A stretch of 64,000 nucleotides of DNA from Pseudopyrenochaeta lycopersici (lineage: Eukaryota > Ascomycota > Dothideomycetes > Pleosporales > Pseudopyrenochaetaceae). The notes beneath the pieces are model-generated. The model ran no database searches. It had not been told where the DNA came from and saw only the letters and a list, made by a program, of their open reading frames with translations. A program made the position numbers and the translations under genes. Within the stretch, counting starts at the first letter, position 1; every line of letters begins with the position of its first letter. Positions 31,098 to 43,210 of this stretch are shown one piece after another. The DNA lies in the NCBI GenBank assembly GCA_003313425.1, contig NHZP01000025.1:310001-374000 (forward strand), given 5' to 3'.

Positions 31098-31271
31098 TGT
31101 CAGATTCAAGGACTATTTAGCTTTATCTTTGATGAATTTTGATGATGAACGTTGTTGATTGATTGTTCTGTGTTCCCTATTTCTCCTTTTATGGAGAGTG
31201 TGTGTGCCAAGTGGTTACACCCGAGCTTTGTACTACAATACAGTATCGCGTACCCTCGCTTGTATCTGACA
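31098..31271 (-). repeat. Copia 3' LTR
   Basis: 174 bp from TGTCAGATTC to TATCTGACA. By eye it is identical to the other LTR at 36149-36322. It is the 3' LTR because the genes run on the minus strand. Confidence 0.93.
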
Positions 31272-31374
31272 CACCCCCTCAGCTTGGAAACCATTTCAAG
31301 CTGGACAAGAAATACTTCCGTTGTCTTCTAGTGAATCTAGAGGTCGTGTACAAGAAGCATCGATCACCGTCTAG

Positions 31375-34300
31375 CTACGCCTGTTCGATCTCTAGCTTCT
31401 CAATTTGGCTTTGGATCTCTTCAAGGCGTGCTGCTGTTAGATCTCTGCTTCCTGTGCGCTCTACAAGGCCCATTTGGCTTAGAAATCGTGCCCATTTATT
31501 TGCTGGCAGCGCCTTTGTAAAGCCATCAGCTAGCATGTCAGCCGATTGGACATAGATGACCCGAATACTTCTTCTTAACACTTCCTGTCTCAGCCAATGA
31601 TTGTGAATGTCTACATGCCGGAGCTTAGTTTGCAACCGTGAGACCTCTTCATTGATTAGCCGGATGGTTTGAGTGTTATCGCATTGTATCGTGATTGTGT
31701 CCTCAGGCAGATTGATTTGCAATTCCTTGAGTAGTCGTGATATGAATATAGCTTCTTTTGCAACTTGTGATAGCGCAAGAAGCTCAGCTTCTGTTGTCGA
31801 GGTTGTGACTGTATCTTGCTTGCTTGCTTTCCAAGCTATCAAGCCACCAAACAACTTGATTGTATATCCCTGTGAGCTCTTTCTGTCTAGTGTGTTATCG
31901 GCGAAAGAGGCGTCGCTCGCGATTTCAAGTCGACTATCTCCGCCAAGCTCAAGCGCTCGATTTTTGGTACTCTGCAGGTAGAGGAGAACTCTATCAGCTG
32001 CATCATGATGCTCCTGTCCCGGATTCATCAGAAAGCGTGCGAGTCGTGACGTCGCGAATGCAACATCTGGACGAGTAGTCACAGCTGCAAACATTAGGGA
32101 TCCAATCTTTCGCTGGTACTTGTTGATTTCTGAAAGAGTAGCCAGTCCTTCCCGAGGCTTGAGTTCAATGGCCGCCATTGGAGTGTCGTGTCGGATATCC
32201 TTTCTGTCGACTAAACGGCTGATCTTGTCCGCGTATGCTGCTTGTGATAGCTGGATCTTGCGCTGCTCTCGGCTCCTGATGACTTCAACTCCAAGAAACC
32301 ATTGAAGATCATCTCCGCCAGTTATTGAGTACTTGTCTCTAAGATGTTGGATCGCTTGCTGAGCTTCAGTCTCCTTCTGCTTGCTGTATGCAAGAATGAT
32401 ATCGTCGACATAGAAGAATATGATAATTCCATCTTTAATCAAACAGCATGGCTCGTGAGGGACGCTCTGAAAGCCCAGTTTCTGGAGGGTTGATGTGAAT
32501 TCCTTCTGCCAGAGGATTGGTGATATTCGGAGCCCATATAAGGCCTTGTTGACTTGCAGCACTGTCCTAGGCTTCCGATAGCCATGTGGCATTCTCATGT
32601 AGATCTCTCGGTCCATTGCTGCATGAACGAAAGCATTTGTGACGTCGTACTGTCTGAGCTCAAGATCGAAATGAGCAGCGATCGCCATCAGCATTCGAAA
32701 CGACCGGCTCGCGAGAGTAGCTGCATAGGTTTCCTGAGAAGTAATATTTCTCTGTTGGTCTCCTCGGACGACTAATCGCGCCTTACAGCTCTTGAAGCGA
32801 TAGTCCTTGTCGAGCTTGTAGGTATACACCCACATGCAGTCTAAGATCTGTTGACCCTTTGCTTTTACTTCCTTTACGGGCACTTCAGACCATGATTTCA
32901 TCTGCTCATGACTCTTAAGATGCTCTCTCTGGGCTTCCTTCCAGTAGTCTCTGAGTGGATGTTCTTCTATCTGCCTCTGGGTTGACGGCGGCGGTGGAAG
33001 TTGGTTGAGATGAGGCCTTAGACCTTGTGCCAGCATTCGGTTCATTTGAGCTTTATCCACTGGCTTGCCTTCGTACGTTCCAATGTTCCCAGCCTGTGTC
33101 CCAGCCATGAATGCGGCCTTCCATGGGACGGTCTTTGATGAGGCATCTGAGTCCTGAGTGTCTTCCTGATAAGCGCCTGCTAGCAGATGCGCAAGCAGAG
33201 CTACCGGCGGTGGAGTCGCTGGTGGCGTAGGATAGCTGTACCCCGTCTTCCTCCCTTGGCGGTATCCTGGGCTATCATATTCTTGGGTTGGCTCAGTATC
33301 CTGTGTTGTATCATCTTCAAAGAACGTTTCAGTCTCTGGTTGATCGTGGGTAGGTTCTGGAAGCTCAGCGGATCTCACCCATGCAGCTATCTCGTTCAAG
33401 GTGCTGTGCATGAGATTGTCCATAATGTCTTCTGTCTTCCCGTTGAATATCGTGTCTTCGTCGAACACTACGTCTCGAGTGCTGATCACCTTGCCCATCG
33501 TTGGAATCCAGATCCTGTAGATACTGGACGATCGATATCCAACTAGGTATCCAATCCAAGCTCGCGGATCAAGACGTTGGAGTTGTGATTTGCCTCGAAG
33601 AGTGTCATCAGTCAAGGCAAAGGCCTTGCAGCCATATGCTTTTAGGTGTGCCAGGTTCGGTTTTTGAGGTGTTGTGACGATACCGTTTCGGAGAGCTGCA
33701 AATGTGGAGAAGACTTTGTACGGTGACTTCCAATGATTCGAGTAGTTCGGCGTTCGATTGTATAGATACACCGCTGCTCGTGTAATCTCTGGCCACAGCT
33801 CCCACGGCAAGTTTGCGTCTAGCCTCATCGCGCGAGATTTATCTTTGACTACACCCCCTGAGCGTTCAGCACCACCGTTTTGTGCTTGGGTATCTGGAGC
33901 TGAAGGCTCGAGTCGTATTGCTTGCGCGGTACACCATCGTGCTACCTCCGGCTTCGTAGTTGCAATCTCACCATCACATTCGATCACTTTAACAGTAATG
34001 TTGTACTGCTTCTTCAGGAACTGGACAATAATATCTAGTAACCTGATGATTGACTTCCCAAGTCGATTGTCCTTGAAGTAAAAGTCCCATAGGAAACCGG
34101 AGTATCGATCAGTGACGAGCATTTGACTCTTCTCCTTCGTTGAGCTTCCCTCCTCATAAGAATGGAAGTCAATAGCTAGTCTTTCTCCTGGGCCTTCGTG
34201 GTTTGATCGAGGTGTGCGTCGTATTTGCCGCTTAGTTTTGGCTCTTCCGCACGCGTCGCACTTAACTGTTGTAACTCCCTTAATGCGCACCCCCTCAGAT

Positions 34301-34881
34301 TGCTGGACTAGGTGTTCGATAGCTGCCGGCCCTGGATGTCCCATGCGTTTATGCCAGCGCATCGCATCAGCCTTCTGTGGTGCTCGCTTTGATCGAGAAT
34401 TGATTGTTCTTATGTGAAATGCTGCCTGCATCTCGTCTTCTTGCTCGAGTATCCATTGTCCATGTGCTTCTTTTAGGCATGCGATTGTTGAGTCGTCTCG
34501 CCTCTTGAGAGTCGTAGGCTCATTCTTATTGTCCCACCACACGCCCTGTTGTCTAAGCAATCTGAATGAGACTAGATTGCATAGGATCTCTGGACACCAT
34601 GCCACATCGTTCAGCACGAGCCTTGTTGGTCCATATGGCCCTCTTAGGTTGAGCCACACTGTTCCATATCCTTGTATCAAAATCCGTGTGTTCCCAGCCA
34701 GTATGTAATCTGCCGTAACGGGAGGACGCAGGCTTCGAAGTCGAGATCGGTCGTTCGTGACGTGGATCGTCGAGCCCGAGTCTAGGATGAAGGAGTGTCT
34801 TAGTGGGTAGTCTAAATGCTCGGCTTGGAAAGATGCAGCGTTGAACGCAGCACTAATGGTTGTAATCTTCCGACCTTCAAG
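31375..34881 (-). CDS. Copia pol: protease, integrase, reverse transcriptase, RNase H
   Basis: The open frame continues without interruption from just after the gag TGA. In order: aspartic protease (ILDSGSTIHVTNDRS), GAG-pre-integrase zinc motif (HKRMGHPGPAAIEH ... KCDACGRAKT), integrase core (AIDFHSYEEG, VIECDGEI, PDTQAQNGGAERSGG), RT (YDVTNAFVHAAMDREIYMRM, NKALYGLRISPILWQ, IIFFYVDDIILAY) and RNase H (IASDASFADNTLDRKSSQGY, TTSTTEAELLALSQ). Catalytic residues of all domains are visible, so the enzyme set looks functional. There is no ATG at the pol start. Expression must come from read-through of the gag stop or from an unseen event. Confidence 0.92.
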   Translation of the reverse strand, partial: LEGRKITTISAAFNAASFQAEHLDYPLRHSFILDSGSTIHVTNDRSRLRSLRPPVTADYILAGNTRILIQGYGTVWLNLRGPYGPTRLVLNDVAWCPEILCNLVSFRLLRQQGVWWDNKNEPTTLKRRDDSTIACLKEAHGQWILEQEDEMQAAFHIRTINSRSKRAPQKADAMRWHKRMGHPGPAAIEHLVQQSEGVRIKGVTTVKCDACGRAKTKRQIRRTPRSNHEGPGERLAIDFHSYEEGSSTKEKSQMLVTDRYSGFLWDFYFKDNRLGKSIIRLLDIIVQFLKKQYNITVKVIECDGEIATTKPEVARWCTAQAIRLEPSAPDTQAQNGGAERSGGVVKDKSRAMRLDANLPWELWPEITRAAVYLYNRTPNYSNHWKSPYKVFSTFAALRNGIVTTPQKPNLAHLKAYGCKAFALTDDTLRGKSQLQRLDPRAWIGYLVGYRSSSIYRIWIPTMGKVISTRDVVFDEDTIFNGKTEDIMDNLMHSTLNEIAAWVRSAELPEPTHDQPETETFFEDDTTQDTEPTQEYDSPGYRQGRKTGYSYPTPPATPPPVALLAHLLAGAYQEDTQDSDASSKTVPWKAAFMAGTQAGNIGTYEGKPVDKAQMNRMLAQGLRPHLNQLPPPPSTQRQIEEHPLRDYWKEAQREHLKSHEQMKSWSEVPVKEVKAKGQQILDCMWVYTYKLDKDYRFKSCKARLVVRGDQQRNITSQETYAATLASRSFRMLMAIAAHFDLELRQYDVTNAFVHAAMDREIYMRMPHGYRKPRTVLQVNKALYGLRISPILWQKEFTSTLQKLGFQSVPHEPCCLIKDGIIIFFYVDDIILAYSKQKETEAQQAIQHLRDKYSITGGDDLQWFLGVEVIRSREQRKIQLSQAAYADKISRLVDRKDIRHDTPMAAIELKPREGLATLSEINKYQRKIGSLMFAAVTTRPDVAFATSRLARFLMNPGQEHHDAADRVLLYLQSTKNRALELGGDSRLEIASDASFADNTLDRKSSQGYTIKLFGGLIAWKASKQDTVTTSTTEAELLALSQVAKEAIFISRLLKELQINLPEDTITIQCDNTQTIRLINEEVSRLQTKLRHVDIHNHWLRQEVLRRSIRVIYVQSADMLADGFTKALPANKWARFLSQMGLVERTGSRDLTAARLEEIQSQIEKLEIEQA

Positions 34882-36111
34882 TCAGTCAGCAGATATCTCA
34901 GGCGTAGGAGTGTGAGAGTTCTTGGAGCTTGGTGTTTGTGTTCGTTGTCTTTTCAATGCCCTTACTTGTTCCTGTACATCAGGATCGTATTGTAGGCGTA
35001 GCTTTACCAGCTCTGATATTGATTCCCTCGGCTTGAACCAGTCTGGGGCATTGTCATCATCAATATAGAGGCAGTTGGCAAGAAGATGGCGTAGTCCACA
35101 AGCAGGGCATTTTGTGCCTCCAGCTGCCGCTTTATCCCGATTCTGAGACTGCTTGGATATGGTCGAATGACCAGCTGGGCGTTTTTTTGACGAGGACTTC
35201 CTCCTTGACCCCTGTTTAGGTTGGTCAGATGATGCGCTATCGGGCACGAGAGAGGCGTCCCTGTCCGTGTCCTGGGTGGATGCACCACTGCCAGCGAGAT
35301 ATGAAGCTTCACTTGCAACAAAAGCGCCCTTCTGCTGTCTCCCTTTTGGGTAGTATAAGCTCATGTGATCTCGGAAGCGTTTCATCATTTCTTTTCGATT
35401 CATTCCTGGCTCGCGTCTTCCTTGGTCTTGGAATGATGGCACCCAGTTGGGGCTGACCTTGCTGACTGCGTTTAGGAAATCTTGTATTACATGATTGAAT
35501 TTTTGGACTTCTCCAATTTCTTCAGTCTCTGCGATAGTTGCTGCGTGATCGTACTCAGTCAGCCAGCTATCCCAATGTGTTGGTTGTCTCATTGGCTTTA
35601 AGGCTGCAATGTATCGATCCCGAGCGCGCAGTTGTTCTTCTTCATCGTCGATGCCGACAGTACTCTTCAGACTAGCTACCCATTCTCGGATTGAGAGCTT
35701 TGGTCTGCAGCATGTCTTCTTTAGGTGGACAGAGACTGTTGCTCGGATGTAGACCGAGAGCTTGTCTAACCTTGCATCTTCATCCTTATAGTTTGTTGCT
35801 GCGACTTTGTATGAGTCGAGTCGCGTCTTATAATAATCAACGTCGGTTTTAAAAGCGGTTTGTCCGCCATTCGTTAAATCAGATGGGTTCGCTGGAGGTC
35901 GGTCTCCGATCGCCGCTCGTTTCTCATACATTTCGATGTTTGGCTCGGTCGGAGGGGTCGGCTCTGTCTTCGGCACAGCATCGCTCGTAGAGTCGACGAG
36001 GTGCCAAACCCTAAGTGATAGGCATCTGGCCTCTAGCTGCTCGTACCAAGGCTTCCAGTTCATGTAATCTGTCAGGATAATGTCGAAATCGCAGTTTGTT
36101 GCTTGCGCCAT
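34882..36111 (-). CDS. Copia gag, 409 aa
   Basis: Starts MAQATNCDFDIILTDYMNWK, the Trp-rich opening common to Copia gag proteins. It contains a helical capsid-like region and a Ser/Lys-rich linker (SSSKKRPAGHS), and ends with a zinc knuckle CPACGLRHLLANC close to the CCHC pattern but one residue short in spacing. Gag assembles the virus-like particle in the cytoplasm. Gag and pol share one reading frame and are divided by a single TGA (34882-34884) in the context TGACTT. Confidence 0.9.
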   Translation of the reverse strand: MAQATNCDFDIILTDYMNWKPWYEQLEARCLSLRVWHLVDSTSDAVPKTEPTPPTEPNIEMYEKRAAIGDRPPANPSDLTNGGQTAFKTDVDYYKTRLDSYKVAATNYKDEDARLDKLSVYIRATVSVHLKKTCCRPKLSIREWVASLKSTVGIDDEEEQLRARDRYIAALKPMRQPTHWDSWLTEYDHAATIAETEEIGEVQKFNHVIQDFLNAVSKVSPNWVPSFQDQGRREPGMNRKEMMKRFRDHMSLYYPKGRQQKGAFVASEASYLAGSGASTQDTDRDASLVPDSASSDQPKQGSRRKSSSKKRPAGHSTISKQSQNRDKAAAGGTKCPACGLRHLLANCLYIDDDNAPDWFKPRESISELVKLRLQYDPDVQEQVRALKRQRTQTPSSKNSHTPTPEISAD

Positions 36112-36148
36112 TGCTGTAGCGCAAGGTTGAGGCAGTGAGACTCTTAAT

Positions 36149-36322
36149 TGTCAGATTCAAGGACTATTTAGCTTTATCTTTGATGAATTTTGATGATGAA
36201 CGTTGTTGATTGATTGTTCTGTGTTCCCTATTTCTCCTTTTATGGAGAGTGTGTGTGCCAAGTGGTTACACCCGAGCTTTGTACTACAATACAGTATCGC
36301 GTACCCTCGCTTGTATCTGACA
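36149..36322 (-). repeat. Copia 5' LTR
   Basis: 174 bp, by eye the same sequence as 31098-31271. It should hold the promoter for gag-pol, transcribed leftwards. The ~200 bp to its right (36323-36521) are AT-rich and hold nothing recognised. Confidence 0.93.
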
Positions 36323-36530
36323 AGTAGGCGCGCTCTTTAGTATTAGGTACCTTAAGTATAAGATTTTGTTTAGGAGTCTTTAGCCTTTTAAATAAGCTAT
36401 TATATACTTTATTTGAGCGCAATTTTATGTTATTGTGGCCTTGTGAACATTTACTGTCGAGATGAGATGGGTCAGGTTTGGCGGGGTTGATTACCTCAGC
36501 AGAAAATGTCTCACGAATTATTGCGGCACC

Positions 36531-36622
36531 TAGTCTAGTTGCCACTTGCCCTCCGAAGGGGTTAGTGGCCCTGCGCACGCGCCAAGTCGGGACTCTCCTC
36601 TCCGGAGGGTCTAGTAGCCGGT
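36531..36622 (+). repeat. Left terminal inverted repeat with hairpin
   Basis: Pairs with 42187-42277. It contains the perfectly inverted 26-bp block at 36568-36593, flanked by CCCTCCGAAGG and CTCCGGAGGG, which can pair with one another, so the block sits in a potential hairpin loop. The inner edge is GCCGGTCC. Confidence 0.75.
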
Positions 36623-36713
36623 CCGCCAAAAATACGCGTTCATACACGACGCGAAAATCAACACCGCGATGGATCACTAATACACCAAAAATTCACGCGT
36701 TTTCTCTTCTGGA

Positions 36714-38963
36714 ATGGATTCAATGCCCTCAAATTATGATAATTCATTGTCTTTTACTATATTCAGCGATCCTGTCGACCCTTTGACCGTCGAGCCCACC
36801 CCCGCGATCACCCCGCCCTCCCCCCCTGATATACCAAACTCTGGACGGACGTTGGATGATGGTCTACGAGGGCTGGAGGTGATTGTTGGGCATCCTCTAA
36901 GGCCCCAACAACAGGAGGCGCTCACAGAACTATACAACGGAGAGGACGTAGTCTTAGTAGCCTCAACTGGATTTGGGAAGACGCTGGTTATAACGGGGTT
37001 CCATGAGCTTGTAGACCCATCTGCGCAACCAATTACACTAATACTAAGTCCATTAAAGGCTATTGAGAATGATCAGAGTACTACTTTAAACTGTCTCTCT
37101 CCAAAGTATCGTGGTTTTGTGTTAAACGGCGACTCCAATACAGCTTCAAACCGCCATGATATTGCTTGTGGGAAGTACACCCATATATGGCTCTCCCCTG
37201 AGATTGCGCTAGCTGGCCTGGTAGAGGAGAATAGAGATGGGAAAGGGAAGGATAAAAGGGGGAGGCCATCTGGCAACCAAAGTTCTAGGTCTGAGCGCCA
37301 TATAATTGGTCGTATGCGAACCCAGAAGTTTGATAGTGGCTATATTGACCATGGGACATTTACGTCTGTTATTCGGCATCCAGGTTTCCGGAGACGTCTT
37401 CATCTTGTGGCGATAGACGAGCTACATCTCTGCGGGAGTACGAGCTGGGGAGGTTCCTTCCGGCCAGCAATGGGTCAACTTTATAAGCTCCGGGAACAGC
37501 TCGATTGTCATACTCGATTATTTGGCACTACCGCTACTTTACAGCCTGTCCATTGGGAGTCAATTAGGGATCAAGCTGGGTTTAGGAATCCTATTCATGT
37601 GATACGAGCCGACATTTACCGCCGCGACGTTTACCTCAATATCTTCTCGACTGCTGAGCCGCTCAGTGTTATCAAACGCCTTATATATACCGCCCTCAGC
37701 CATGCTGGAGAAATAGATGCCTCTGTCGAGAGCCGTATTCCTAAGATAATTATCTTCCAGCCAGAAATCCGACAATGTGTCTCTCTACGCGACAATATTA
37801 TGCTATGGCTCCAGGTCCGAATTCGCCGTCGAATCCGCCCCTGTACAGTGTCGACCTACCATGGCGAGTTAACGGACACGTCCCGTGTGGCAATAGAGCA
37901 ACAATTCTCTAGTGGAAAGATACGAATACTTTGTGCCACGGTTGCATATGCTATAGGGGTTAACCCAGCTGGGGTTCGATATGTCGTCCAGCGGGGGCAG
38001 TGTAACACTGATGAAGCCCTCCAGAAGCTTGGACGTGCAAATCGTCAGACACACCAAGACGACGCTGTCTTTTTCTGGACTCTAGATGCCTGTGTATACG
38101 GGGAACGGCAGTCCCAGACAAGACAACCCAAGTACCCACGGTTGGCTGTCCGGACTGCTGCGTCTGTTGTTGATGAGGCGCGTCGAGAGGCAAGTCAGAG
38201 ATTGTATGGGTCTGATGGCTCAGATTCGGACATGTCAGTGGTGTCCGCTTATTCGGTTCAATCGTCTCTATCTACTAGTCCCGCGCCTGGCTCGAAGCGG
38301 AAACGGGGGCTTAGGAGGCATCCACCAGACTCCTGCCATTGGCGAGAGATTATGAGGCTGTATGAGAATGATCATAATGTGCCAGCACCCTGCAACAACT
38401 GCTCGCGTTGCGCAGACTCTCCTGTGGTTCTAGAAGATCTACCAGCCGATGAGAGGGTAGAAAACAAGGACGTGGGTATTGCTATAGAAAGAGAGCTTGA
38501 GAAGCTAGCATTTACGCTTGGTAACGAAGTTACATGCTCTATCCTAGTTGCCGCACGTCCTGATCCTACTGAGCGCGTCCTATCCCTGGCCTGGCGGACG
38601 AAGTTCAGCGAAGCATATTATCGGGTGGCCGGCGGTGACCGGATGGGCTGGTCTTGGGATAGGCCATATGGGGATAGAGTAACTGCGCTGGTGCGGCAAG
38701 TAACTGCATTACCGGTCCAGGTAGATTCCAGTCCAGCAACTACAGCACCCAGCGCTTCCTTGCTATCCCCGCTCTCTTCCTCACAGGGTACGCCTATTTC
38801 TAGGACTCCTGGTCCGACTGTACTACAAGATATTACAAGAGCAAACACTACCCGCCCTGACATACGAAAGACTAGCCGCGGGGCGCCTTCGCTATACAAG
38901 GAACGGGGCAGGTCAAACTTCTATCGTAAGAACTTGAAGGATAAAGAGAATAGTAGGAACTAA
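36714..38963 (+). CDS. RecQ-like superfamily II DNA helicase of the transposon, 749 aa
   Basis: Helicase motifs appear in order: RPQQQEAL (motif 0 region), Walker A ASTGFGKT at residues 83-90, AIDELHLC as motif II near 235 (DELH instead of the usual DEAH), FGTTATL (III), ATVAYAIGVN (V) and LGRANRQTH (VI) near 439. Then CHWREIMRLY ... CNNCSRC near 541-565 matches the RecQ zinc-binding motif. A low-complexity C-terminal tail follows. The enzyme should unwind DNA 3' to 5' using ATP, presumably at the transposon ends or during gap repair; that role is inferred from linkage. Motif VI deviates from the SGRAGRDG of cellular RecQ, and the length suits a transposon-borne helicase. No frame defects. 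The start is the ATG 110 bp inside the left repeat. Confidence 0.88.
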   Translation: MDSMPSNYDNSLSFTIFSDPVDPLTVEPTPAITPPSPPDIPNSGRTLDDGLRGLEVIVGHPLRPQQQEALTELYNGEDVVLVASTGFGKTLVITGFHELVDPSAQPITLILSPLKAIENDQSTTLNCLSPKYRGFVLNGDSNTASNRHDIACGKYTHIWLSPEIALAGLVEENRDGKGKDKRGRPSGNQSSRSERHIIGRMRTQKFDSGYIDHGTFTSVIRHPGFRRRLHLVAIDELHLCGSTSWGGSFRPAMGQLYKLREQLDCHTRLFGTTATLQPVHWESIRDQAGFRNPIHVIRADIYRRDVYLNIFSTAEPLSVIKRLIYTALSHAGEIDASVESRIPKIIIFQPEIRQCVSLRDNIMLWLQVRIRRRIRPCTVSTYHGELTDTSRVAIEQQFSSGKIRILCATVAYAIGVNPAGVRYVVQRGQCNTDEALQKLGRANRQTHQDDAVFFWTLDACVYGERQSQTRQPKYPRLAVRTAASVVDEARREASQRLYGSDGSDSDMSVVSAYSVQSSLSTSPAPGSKRKRGLRRHPPDSCHWREIMRLYENDHNVPAPCNNCSRCADSPVVLEDLPADERVENKDVGIAIERELEKLAFTLGNEVTCSILVAARPDPTERVLSLAWRTKFSEAYYRVAGGDRMGWSWDRPYGDRVTALVRQVTALPVQVDSSPATTAPSASLLSPLSSSQGTPISRTPGPTVLQDITRANTTRPDIRKTSRGAPSLYKERGRSNFYRKNLKDKENSRN

Positions 38964-39170
38964 GTATATGTGTGATGGAATAGAGTCGGCTACTGGAAAT
39001 ATTCTAGGCGTGCTAATACGGCAAGTTTTCGCGTGGTGAATTGCTTCACATCACCGGAGATTGCCAAATTTTGGAAGCTTTTGGAAGCAGATTCGACTAA
39101 AATTGCCGCTTTTGATGGCTCTGACGTCAATCCTAGCTGACGCCGAAGGCAGCAGCCAAAAACGGTGCGT

Positions 39171-41774
39171 TTAGAGGCCCATTTCCACCTCGCCGAGTAG
39201 CTCCTCGGTGGGAGTAGGAAGGCAGGCAAGAGCCTCAACTAGCGCCCGATCCACATCATATACATCTGGCCCTGGACAGTCGTATACCTCCAGCACATCA
39301 TTATCCCATATAGGGATATCGTCAACGACCCGTAGGCTATCAGAATCGTACATAAATTTGGCATTAAACGAGCCCAGAGTATGCTCGATTGTGCTAGCCC
39401 CTTTTAACACAGCGTCTCTTGACCATGTGAGTTTGTGGATATCTGGATCAGACCGCGTAGGATCCAGCATTATTGATCGCCGTGATTGGATTGCAACGTA
39501 GTGTATAACCCTGCCGCGGTTAGCACGGACGTGTTTTCCCAGTGAACGTCTACCCCATATAGCCTGTAGTCTTAGTCGTAATGGTCGAAGAAACAGCGCA
39601 TCAATAGCACCATATTCAGACACTGAACGGACAGTAGTAAACGTCGTCTTCCTATTTAACCAGACGTCCTTTACTGATCGGTTGTGGAATTCGTTTGCCA
39701 GATCAATAGCGTAGAAACCATCCGGTCGACCAGTTGGGTTAACCAGGAGACATCCAGCAATAGCTCTTCGACACTCTTCAGATGTAACATACGCAGTATC
39801 AATGAGTTTCTTAACGTAGATAGCTATCCGCGTATACACTGGCTTCCTGGAACCCTCAAACATATATATGAGGAAGCTGAGTACATGTCGCAGGATGCCG
39901 ATGTCACCGTGCTTAATTGCGTATGTTAACATAGTATAATATAATGCGTCCCGTACGAATAGCAGGTTCTCTCGTCGCTCAAGGTCGACTGGCGCAGTTG
40001 GATCGCCACTGTTTTGATGTGTAGTCTGTATTGACTGAGTCGTCTTTGTAATCAGTGACTTCAGTTGGCGGGGCCGCAGAACCCTAATTGCAGTATCCAA
40101 TTCGTCTGGTAATGGTTCAGGAGACAATCCGCTGCCTGGATACGCTATTAATTGCTGAAAAAACTCTGCCATAATCCGTCCCTGGAGCGCATCTGATACG
40201 AACGTACGTGCATGAGCAAAAACCAGGTTCCTAGGACCAACAAACCGACGAGCCATCTTCCCAGACAGGTACCGCAGAGACGAGTGGTTGCACCGCTCGC
40301 CTCCAGCTGGCTCACTGCCCCAGTGATTCTTAATAATGGTCTGTATTACATGCATCTGCATATGGAACAGTCCAGGTATAGGGACTACATGATGTAGTCG
40401 GCTATACGTGTCGGTGTTATCCCCAGCACCATATATGGCCGACCACATACGATTGACGGTCTTAGCGTCGCCACCAACCAGTATAGCTGGGCGGTTCTCG
40501 AAGTATTCAGGAGACAAAGCAAGCTGATTAAGGAATATGTCCTTTAGTATGTCGATATTACCCATTGTGGTATTCTTACTGGTCTGAATAGGAAGAATGG
40601 GAATTGGCACATGGCGAGAGCCGTCCGGAATCGCTATTCGGTCAACCACCGGGTACGAGGCATGCTCCTTGATTGACGGAGTCTTTAGCTGCTCCAAGAC
40701 ATATGTTGGATATACCTCCTCAAGTGCACTGTATACGGTAGAGGTCACAAATCTAGAGAAACACGCATCTCTTTCAGACGCATCCTTTGTTAGATCGTCC
40801 ATACCGACTACATATGGGGTAAAATCAGCTTGGGACAGACCGCCTAATGGCAGGGTAGTACCAGGTAGTAGAAGGGCGGTGGTAATTGAATGCAGCTGAT
40901 TCCTGGAGGTGTCATCCTGCTCACTGACGCCAGTTGTCAGTTCACAATTGTCGTACACCACTGCCCATGGCCCATCTCTGATAAACTGACGTGCCACTTC
41001 CTTAGCAGCATCCCGTAGTCCACCAACACTACGCCATACAGATGAATACGATTCAGTCCAACCCATTGAGTTTGTAATATCAAACACCTGTTTCTTAGTA
41101 CCAGCAGAGAAGAGTAATAGTCCAAGTATTGCGGGAAGGTAGTTGCACTTCCGCTGGTGTCGACTGAAGCATATAATAGATAGGATCGAAATAATCCGAG
41201 AATTGTTCTGATCATAAGGTGTCCTAGATAGATCGTTGGTGCACAGGCGTCGTAATAGACTAACAGTACCTGGAGCCAGACGCTCAACGTCCTCAAATAG
41301 CTCCCTTTCCGTGGAAATCTCTACACTTGATGGTGTTGTAGGAGCAGTCTCCAGCGAATACTCCCCAAAGATATTGACGCTCTGAAGCAACTCGACCTCC
41401 TTTTCTAAGATAGCACCAGATATATCTTCCCCTGTGGATGGCACAATACCCAACCTCAGCCGTCCTAGGATACTTGGGGTCGACTCAACTGCCTTTATAA
41501 AAGATGCCCGACTTTTTGGCTTGCTGCTTGTCCGACCAAGGAGATACACCAGATCAGTTATATTGCCATAGCGCCCACTCCCATCTTGAGTATGCGTTAC
41601 CCCCTTAATCGCTTCCAAGTAAGTGCTCAGCCTTTCCTCCTCTGCTTGATTGGAGGGTGTGCTGGTATGAACGGCAGGACTAGTAACACGGTTTTTTGAT
41701 CCAACAGGCCGACCCCTTTTAGCAGGACCAGAAGGGGTAGAGGTTTGGTCTGCCAGGGAGGATCGGTCTGGCAA
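39171..41774 (-). CDS. Large AT-hook protein, probable DDE-type transposase (DUF6589-like), 867 aa
   Basis: The N-terminus has an AT-hook, KRGRPVGSKN. The body resembles fungal DUF6589-type proteins: VYDNCELTTGVSEQDD near residue 273, LVGGDAKTVNRMW near 430, PIPGLFHMQMHVIQTIIKNH near 460-480. Spaced acidic residues in YDN, GGD and further on fit an RNase H-like DDE fold, but I cannot prove the catalytic triad by eye. The frame is fully open and ends 207 bp from the end of the helicase gene, tail to tail. Being inside a unit with inverted ends and a target duplication, it is the best candidate for the transposase. An upstream extension is possible, but no earlier ATG was chosen. Confidence 0.75.
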   Translation of the reverse strand: MPDRSSLADQTSTPSGPAKRGRPVGSKNRVTSPAVHTSTPSNQAEEERLSTYLEAIKGVTHTQDGSGRYGNITDLVYLLGRTSSKPKSRASFIKAVESTPSILGRLRLGIVPSTGEDISGAILEKEVELLQSVNIFGEYSLETAPTTPSSVEISTERELFEDVERLAPGTVSLLRRLCTNDLSRTPYDQNNSRIISILSIICFSRHQRKCNYLPAILGLLLFSAGTKKQVFDITNSMGWTESYSSVWRSVGGLRDAAKEVARQFIRDGPWAVVYDNCELTTGVSEQDDTSRNQLHSITTALLLPGTTLPLGGLSQADFTPYVVGMDDLTKDASERDACFSRFVTSTVYSALEEVYPTYVLEQLKTPSIKEHASYPVVDRIAIPDGSRHVPIPILPIQTSKNTTMGNIDILKDIFLNQLALSPEYFENRPAILVGGDAKTVNRMWSAIYGAGDNTDTYSRLHHVVPIPGLFHMQMHVIQTIIKNHWGSEPAGGERCNHSSLRYLSGKMARRFVGPRNLVFAHARTFVSDALQGRIMAEFFQQLIAYPGSGLSPEPLPDELDTAIRVLRPRQLKSLITKTTQSIQTTHQNSGDPTAPVDLERRENLLFVRDALYYTMLTYAIKHGDIGILRHVLSFLIYMFEGSRKPVYTRIAIYVKKLIDTAYVTSEECRRAIAGCLLVNPTGRPDGFYAIDLANEFHNRSVKDVWLNRKTTFTTVRSVSEYGAIDALFLRPLRLRLQAIWGRRSLGKHVRANRGRVIHYVAIQSRRSIMLDPTRSDPDIHKLTWSRDAVLKGASTIEHTLGSFNAKFMYDSDSLRVVDDIPIWDNDVLEVYDCPGPDVYDVDRALVEALACLPTPTEELLGEVEMGL

Positions 41775-42186
41775 TGAGGACGACGAAGAGGGGAGCGGGA
41801 TTGAAGACTGAGACGACCAAGGTGATCCAGCTGGCTGACCTGAGGAAACGTTACTACGACCTTCTATATAACTAGGGGCGACTATCCGAACTCTCTACTA
41901 GAAGGGCAGCCGCGCTCAGTACTGCTAGTCGGTTGGGAGAGGGGCGGGGCGTATCGGGCGGGGCATTTGGCCCACGCTCGTGTTCAGATCGCATTTTCCA
42001 CCGGACGGGGTTCAGCCACCACCACAGCAAAATAAAATATCGCAGAGCGCGTATAAGGTACTCTTAGACCCGCTGAGTCGATTGCAGTAAAAAAAAGGGG
42101 GTTTCTATTCTGTGGTTGTTGTGCTATTGCTGGTTGAAGTATGTAGCTACACCAAAAAAACGTGTTCAGATCGCCAAAAATAATGG

Positions 42187-42277
42187 ACCGGCCACCAGAC
42201 GTTCCCCTGAGGGGTCCCGACTTGGCGCGTGCGCAGGGCTATCCCCGAATAGGGAACGTCTGGTAGTTACGAGACTA
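42187..42277 (-). repeat. Right terminal inverted repeat with hairpin
   Basis: Counterpart of 36531-36622. The 26-bp block 42214-42239 is framed by CCAGACGTTCCC and GGGAACGTCTGG, a perfect 12-bp inverted pair, so this end can form a strong stem with the conserved block in its loop. The sequence between here and the gene start (41775-42186) is partly GC-rich; CGTGTTCAGATCGC occurs twice, near 41979 and 42161. Confidence 0.8.
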
Positions 42278-42286
42278 TGCGGCACC

Positions 42287-43210
42287 TGGTGGGCGTGGGG
42301 TGATGATGACGTAAGGGATGATGACGTCAATCACACGGCTTGGTTGGCCGGTTTCCTGCAGAGGAAGCGGTGACTCGTAGAACCATTGGTGAGTCTGGAG
42401 CGATAGGTAACCTGCAGAATTTCGTCACCCCGCCTCTGATCGCAATGGGCAGGATAGCGCTCATTCATCTTCAAGGCGTAACTCCACCTTTCTCCCAGAA
42501 TATCGCTTGCTTATAGCTTACATTCGCAATTAGTCGTTAAGGACAATCACTTCGCGTCTTTCTGGATCGAATGCATCTCCTCACTTGCGCGAGAGGCGTT
42601 AGATTCCCAGGTGTGTAGATGAAGAGAGAGGTTGTATCCAAGGGAGCATGACTACGGGCCGGAGCGGTAAGGCGCCAGGAGTGTTAGGCACCACTCCATG
42701 ATCAGATTAAGTTCTCGGAAGCGATAGGGAATCCAGAACCGGAGCGGGTGCCACTGCGGAAAACCAACCAGGGCTAGCCAGGCACAAGCCATGATTGCAG
42801 GTCGAAACTGCTAATTATCAATACAATCCGAAGGATCTCGAACTATGGTCCTTGCTCACTAGTGTTGTCGTTATGGCAACGCAAGTACGTACCTCGGAGG
42901 GGCTCGTGCACATGTCCAAAATAACTAAAGCTTTGCTCTAAACTCTGGTTCGACTGTGTCGTGATGAGAAATGAGGTGTGGTATGAGGTCACCCTGGATT
43001 GCAGTGACTGTTAGCAACTCTGCGGCAGCGACAACCTATCTTGACACTTCATTCTTCATCACTATACTACGACCATCGTACTTAGGCGATCAGAGCAGCA
43101 CTGCTACCGGCAAGACATCGATTCTCTCCGTTATTTTCGGCTATTTAGGGTAGCACTTCGAGTGCTCTCTCAGCTGCAGTGCCTCGTTCACGACACCAAC
43201 CACAAAATTC
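42287..43210. other. Intergenic, nothing recognised
   Basis: Between the transposon's right target copy and the next host gene. Only short frames without domains. The promoter of the gene at 43211 must lie at the right end. Confidence 0.45.

Follow-up and report, generated by a model that had tools for sequence, protein, structure and literature searches.

Introduction

AcademH DNA transposons are reportedly the subject of Kojima 2020 (Mob DNA 11:15). Among other groups, Kolobok elements have the target site duplication (TSD) TTAA, Helitrons lack a TSD, and Dada and other site-selective DNA transposons have a single insertion site within sequences that occur repeatedly. AcademH and AcademX are placed in the same superfamily in the available excerpts of Kojima 2023 (PMC10045372), where their TSDs are given as 9 or 10 bp and 3 or 4 bp, respectively. 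The helicase of AcademH and the nuclease of AcademX seem, in the same excerpts, to be related to this difference in TSD length. The available part of a 2024 screen (PMC10799480) includes DEAD and Helicase_C in its set of helicase domains belonging to AcademH, KolobokH or Helitron elements, without mention of DUF6589. AcademH elements are given there as having few copies in three fungal phyla, Basidiomycota, Ascomycota and Mucoromycota. Four other papers (PMC8290104, PMC9323773, PMC12210899, PMC9970103), as far as their excerpts extend, mostly cite Kojima 2020.

The transposon described here lies in a window of 64,000 nucleotides (the whole stretch of DNA analysed) on contig C25 of a 62.7-Mb genome in 188 contigs. 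It belongs to family A, one of three families (A, B and C) in this genome that each carry a helicase gene and a DUF6589 gene in convergent orientation.

Boundaries and Target Site of the Window Element

The transposon occupies positions 36531..42277 (5747 bp, TAGTCT...AGACTA). The boundaries at 36531 and 42277, proposed in a first-pass annotation of the sequence, were checked on other copies in the genome, whose matches stop exactly at element bases 1 and 5747. The same annotation had pointed to a 9-bp direct repeat, to inverted TAGTCT ends and to a 26-bp block inverted within each end, and all three are present. The repeat, TGCGGCACC, is perfect between its left (36522..36530) and right (42278..42286) copies. 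The strict terminal inverted repeat is 6 bp (TAGTCT/AGACTA), and these ends are shared by the window element and other family-A and family-B copies. The subterminal block at 36568..36593 on the forward strand has a perfect inverted copy (100%) at 42214..42239 on the reverse strand, and the two blocks are candidate binding sites for the transposase. The right block is enclosed by a palindrome (42194..42264) with 13-bp arms at 42194-42206 and 42252-42264. Terminal hairpins as a strong feature common to both ends were rejected, the z-score for DNA folding being -2.14 at the right end vs -0.50 at the left.

The insertion falls within a dispersed repeat, termed X, and leaves 5 bp of it beyond the element. 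The final stretch of X before the insertion spans 36323..36530, and its closing TGGTG occupies 42287-42291, directly after the right TSD. Twelve copies of X outside the window were listed when 40 of 409 candidates were scored, and the flanks of all 12 were read. Each of these 12 element-free copies has TGCGGCACC once at the junction, so that the empty site sought for the first-pass proposal, reading the target a single time, was found in every listed copy. The next 5 bp are TGGTG in 10 of the 12, with TAGTG and TGGTA occurring once each; beyond them lies unrelated DNA. The empty sites and the TGGTG beyond the right TSD together define the target as ...TGCGGCACC followed by TGGTG near the end of X, with 9 bp duplicated. 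Because the same termini occur elsewhere and the target is single in 12/12 listed empty sites, the ends are not due to chance; the boundaries and the 9-bp duplication of the window element are real. It is vanishingly improbable that a helicase simply lies by an unrelated gene between fortuitous 9-bp repeats. Nothing was found in favour of such a pairing, and the copies with exact ends, the 12 listed empty sites and the recurrence of the gene pair in three families speak against it.

The surroundings contain further repeats. A copia-type retrotransposon on the reverse strand (31098..36322) adjoins repeat X, and its two LTR stretches (31098-31271 and 36149-36322) match each other perfectly along 174 bp. 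The remainder of X was sought beyond the far side of this copia element and was not found there; a nesting of the copia element within X was dropped, as copies of X match the window at 36322-36534 only. The right flank of the transposon (42287-42540) is 98% identical to C25:203991-204244, which, judged by this match, may be an empty site of repeat X itself. Separately, in four sites (the window, L015, L025 and L043), short inverted repeats with arms of 3-6 bp lie against one side of the target. Their arms of 4, 6, 3 and 5 bp are matched by 5.2%, 0.5%, 19% and 1.6% of window positions, respectively, percentages that stand before doubling for two edges. The pattern was spotted post hoc and is a weak observation.

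The Helicase and DUF6589 Genes

The two long open reading frames of the element are convergent. The helicase gene (36714..38963, forward strand; 749 aa, ATG start) encodes a RecQ-like superfamily II protein with Pfam matches to DEAD (1.9e-13) and Helicase_C (1.5e-9). RecQ models were its best scorers; the match to the RecQ family model TIGR00614 (E 6.5e-27, 94 bits) is under the cut-off of 219.8. The closest PDB chains were WRN, RecQ and RECQ1, in line with the RecQ-like helicase named in the first-pass annotation. The motifs then named (DELH, GRANRQ and the cysteine motif CNNCSRC) can be read in the translation, but the Pfam RecQ zinc-binding model gave no match at E up to 1.

The second gene (39171..41774, reverse strand) probably encodes the transposase. 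The listed protein has 867 aa and matches DUF6589 over residues 327-713 (E 8.4e-57); with E allowed up to 1, no other Pfam family is matched. Two long intact convergent genes had been proposed. Both frames are indeed open and convergent, but the 867-aa frame begins at TTG as listed and has no in-frame ATG: the open stretch runs through 907 codons, reaching about 41894, without an ATG before a stop. For this reason the gene likely has a 5' exon and an intron upstream; 17 GT-AG joins from an ATG at 41994 keep the frame.

The YDN and GGD motifs noticed in the first reading are likewise readable in the translation. In an alignment of six proteins (four from family B, forming two closely related pairs, plus one each from families A and C), D275 (YDN/WDN), D436 (GGD/YGD) and E695 (NEF) are invariant in all six. 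These residues form a candidate catalytic triad and make a DDE-type transposase the most likely identity of the DUF6589 protein, a reading drawn from the aligned sequences. An AlphaFold2 model of the 867-aa protein from its single sequence (mean pLDDT 36.4, pTM 0.25) was too poor for its fold to be read, and a PDB search with the six-sequence DUF6589 alignment returned no credible relative. Two caspase fragments in that search (E 0.63 and 0.71) were taken as chance, as was an NCBIfam match of the transposase to diglucosylglycerate octanoyltransferase (E 0.062, far below cut-off). Relatives were confirmed for none of 35 pattern matches in viral contigs and none of 38 in bacterial and archaeal genome contigs.

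Codon positions were compared between and within families. Between families A and B, third positions differ by 0.59-0.62 in both genes, vs 0.33 at first and 0.22-0.23 at second positions. Third positions thus differ about 1.8 times as much as first and 2.6-2.8 times as much as second positions, a pattern that selection on both proteins would be expected to leave. No third-position excess is seen among the family-A helicases (0.023/0.017/0.012 and 0.007/0.004/0.004), and recent selection on the family-A helicase would not be supported by these within-family codon positions.

Classification of the Window Element

Judged against the published description of AcademH, the window element is very probably a complete AcademH-type DNA transposon. 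The AcademH features that it carries are a superfamily II helicase, which is also present in families B and C, a 9-bp TSD and defined inverted ends (6 bp only). The first-pass proposal of a complete helicase-bearing transposon of this type agrees with the helicase and DUF6589 genes, the real ends and the 9-bp TSD. The same annotation had ascribed shorter duplications to AcademH and had taken 9 bp as the possible mark of a distinct lineage. That ascription does not stand, since the available excerpts of PMC10045372 assign 9 or 10 bp to AcademH itself and 3 or 4 bp to AcademX. The 9-bp duplication therefore argues for AcademH and not for a new lineage. A lineage outside AcademH, marked by this duplication and the TAGTCT ends, is accordingly improbable, even though both marks are present as described and family C, with its TTACCTCAG ends and 8-bp duplications, shows that lineages in this genome differ.

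Could the element instead belong to another helicase-bearing or large fungal group, such as KolobokH, the KDZ/Zisupton type or Helitron? The 9-bp TSD and inverted ends are unlike those of Helitron, which has no TSD, and of Kolobok with its TTAA, and the 867-aa protein has no Pfam match besides DUF6589 at E up to 1. Membership of such a group is very unlikely, although KolobokH and Helitron carry helicases too (PMC10799480, available part). With the AcademH-type assignment preferred, it is a sound observation that the window element is unusually complete and otherwise ordinary for a transposon of this type.

Family A Copies and Their Condition

Further copies, which the first-pass annotation had suggested seeking with their flanks aligned, were found in the genome (40 of 55 candidates scored). 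The ends agree among family-A copies and the flanks differ. The copy L009 (C56:191841-200566) is about 99% identical to the window element and is broken by a 3-kb insertion; L010 (C28:445876-454970) carries two insertions; and L011, in C78, is the right part of a family-A element. No target duplication was found at L009 (flanks ..GGACTAG and GCATCTCG..), and at L010 the pair is imperfect and 8 bp long (ACCGTAAT / GCCATAAT). L009 and L010 are the two other family-A copies that retain both ends, so that the window copy is the one that provides a perfect TSD for family A. It is plausible that rearrangement or mutation lies behind the missing and imperfect TSDs.

Differences from the window copy are C>T or G>A in 121/143 cases for L010, 129/140 for L011 and 16/46 for L009; the changes in L010 and L011 would fit repeat-induced point mutation (RIP) and would suggest that the host is a filamentous ascomycete. 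The helicase of L010 has five in-frame stops. In L009 a frame change near residue 620 breaks the transposase in two, and the helicase is interrupted near its end. Among the matches listed, no family-A copy besides that in the window keeps both frames open, and the family-A matches other than these are partial. The window copy is also free of the RIP-like changes seen in L010 and L011. On the basis of its open frames and apparently undamaged sequence, the window element is possibly active.

Sister Families B and C

The genome contains 26 matches to DUF6589, 25 of them above cut-off. Family-B transposases are 57.5-59.1% identical in amino acids to the window protein near full length and 49-62% in partial matches. 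Perfect 9-bp duplications flank family-B elements in C72 (CCTGAGATG) and C112 (CGCCAGAGC), and 9-bp duplications with one mismatch are found in C79 and C64. The ends in C64 lie 11 kb apart and are taken as one interrupted family-B insertion.

Family C (C43, C55, C5) has TTACCTCAG...CTGAGGTAA ends and duplications of 8 bp, outside the 9 or 10 bp given for AcademH. Its transposase is about 26% identical to the window protein and its helicase 24-25% identical to the window helicase. The DUF6589 gene of family C is in two pieces, convergent with the helicase in C43, and this split suggests an intron. Elements of 6.2 kb were seen at L069, L043, L070 and L045, and the flanks in C43 and C5 are alike with the element in opposite orientation. 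Site selectivity is not claimed for family C from these two opposite-orientation loci: among the flanks read (11 of 16 end matches), five further ends and L044 lie in other sequences, and the two loci are explained no less simply by a single locus that was duplicated and in which the element was inverted. Eight further right-end matches of the form AACGTCTGGCGGTTA(G/A)GAGACTA (C13, C15, C69, C91, C106, C132, C135, C187) suggest, by their shared terminus, another related family.

A Copia LTR as the Probable Preferred Landing Site of Family B

Family-B ends were counted at up to one mismatch, which retained 16 of 29 pattern matches on the left and 9 of 15 on the right; reversed-pattern controls gave one match each. 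The start region of one LTR type or its variant is adjoined by 22 of these 25 ends and by 18 of the 21 insertions, four of the 21 having both ends. The loci behind this observation are L015-L025, L028, L072-L076, L082 and L083, and the three insertions away from the LTR site are at C20:839278, C72:88870 and C31:584049. The LTR at the junctions is of the type TGTCGCAGGCCAAGG..TCATCTCAGG or of the variant TGTCGCAGGCCGGGC..GCTCTAGCG, the junction following the second sequence in each case.

Loci with a common outer flank were collapsed, leaving 14 distinct family-B insertions. Two loci in C70 with those in C105 and C160 became one, as did two in C36. The insertion in C80 was kept apart, since it lies in the outer of two nested LTRs, despite sharing its outer flank with the C70 group. 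The variant LTR, with its low script scores, and the C70 group, with a script position of 81 and two LTR starts in its flank, were read by eye. The junction is at the same place in 11 of the 14 distinct insertions (eight at LTR bases 19-27 and three, by eye, at the matching place in the variant LTR) and is shifted by 1 or 2 bp in the other three. Overall, the junctions at this site lie 16-28 bp inside the LTR. Read by orientation, the 14 insertions divide 7 vs 7.

Nineteen weaker end matches, corresponding to 16 places, were excluded from these counts; C57, C105 and C113 appear in both lists. Five of the excluded ends are those of family A. Ends in C3 and C51 also lie at such an LTR start, those in C63, C58 and C57/C105/C113 lie elsewhere, and the flank in C1 was left out. 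The right ends in C25 (twice) and C115 are interrupted by an LTR, after which LTR-like sequence follows. At L013, L014 and L089, a CCAGA-flanked copia-type LTR was seen 3 bp inside a family-B right end, followed by LTR-like sequence.

In C56 the flank codes for ADGFTKPLSAEKHSHFVKQLGLVDI, beyond which come a G-rich tract and then the LTR. We take ADGFTKPLSAEKHSHFVKQLGLVDI to resemble the end of copia polyproteins, and the target LTR is assigned on sequence grounds to a copia-type element. This LTR is common, with at least 44 matches when 40 of the 122 candidates were scored; 122 LTR copies of about 185 bp would make up 0.04% of the genome, as a lower bound. The spread of one family-B insertion by retrotransposition was considered and rejected, as it is unable to explain both orientations and two LTR variants. 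It is likely that machinery of the AcademH type can be site-selective, with family B inserting mostly at one 9-bp site of a copia LTR in both orientations. No mention of such an LTR-site preference was met in the available portions of the AcademH literature, a scope that leaves Kojima 2020 outside; the preference is not claimed to be unreported.

Discussion

What is seen directly comprises the boundaries, the TSD, the empty sites, the genes of the element and their pairing in all three families. A cut-and-paste route may be proposed. The DUF6589 transposase would recognise the 26-bp subterminal block at each end and cut at TAGTCT/AGACTA. The excised element would be joined to its target with a 9-bp stagger, and host repair would yield the 9-bp duplication. 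The RecQ-like helicase probably opens or remodels the DNA ends or the joined intermediate.

The window copy, with its open frames, exact ends and empty site, offers a clean start for testing DUF6589 as the AcademH transposase. It is also suited to probing the role of the helicase, which is tied to the long TSD by suggestion only in the excerpts of PMC10045372. The site choice of family B is nevertheless a more interesting lead than the window element. If it holds, a helicase-transposase DNA transposon uses a retrotransposon LTR as a standing landing pad. Families A and B, with transposases about 58% identical, form a natural contrast in target choice: no repeated target appeared in the few family-A sites read, whereas family B is mostly at the fixed LTR site. 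Exchanging domains between the two could show which parts set the target.

How does the window element compare with known systems? KolobokH differs in its TTAA TSD, in place of which the window has TGCGGCACC, and resembles the window element in bearing a helicase (PMC10799480, available part). With AcademH, for which fungal hosts are reported, the window element shares a helicase gene beside the probable transposase gene and a 9-bp TSD, and no difference was established in this comparison by description. AcademX differs in having a TSD of 3 or 4 bp and a nuclease, where the window element has 9 bp and a helicase. Family B resembles the Dada type in landing at a single site of a repeated sequence, and differs from it in that its target is a copia LTR and theirs is an RNA gene.
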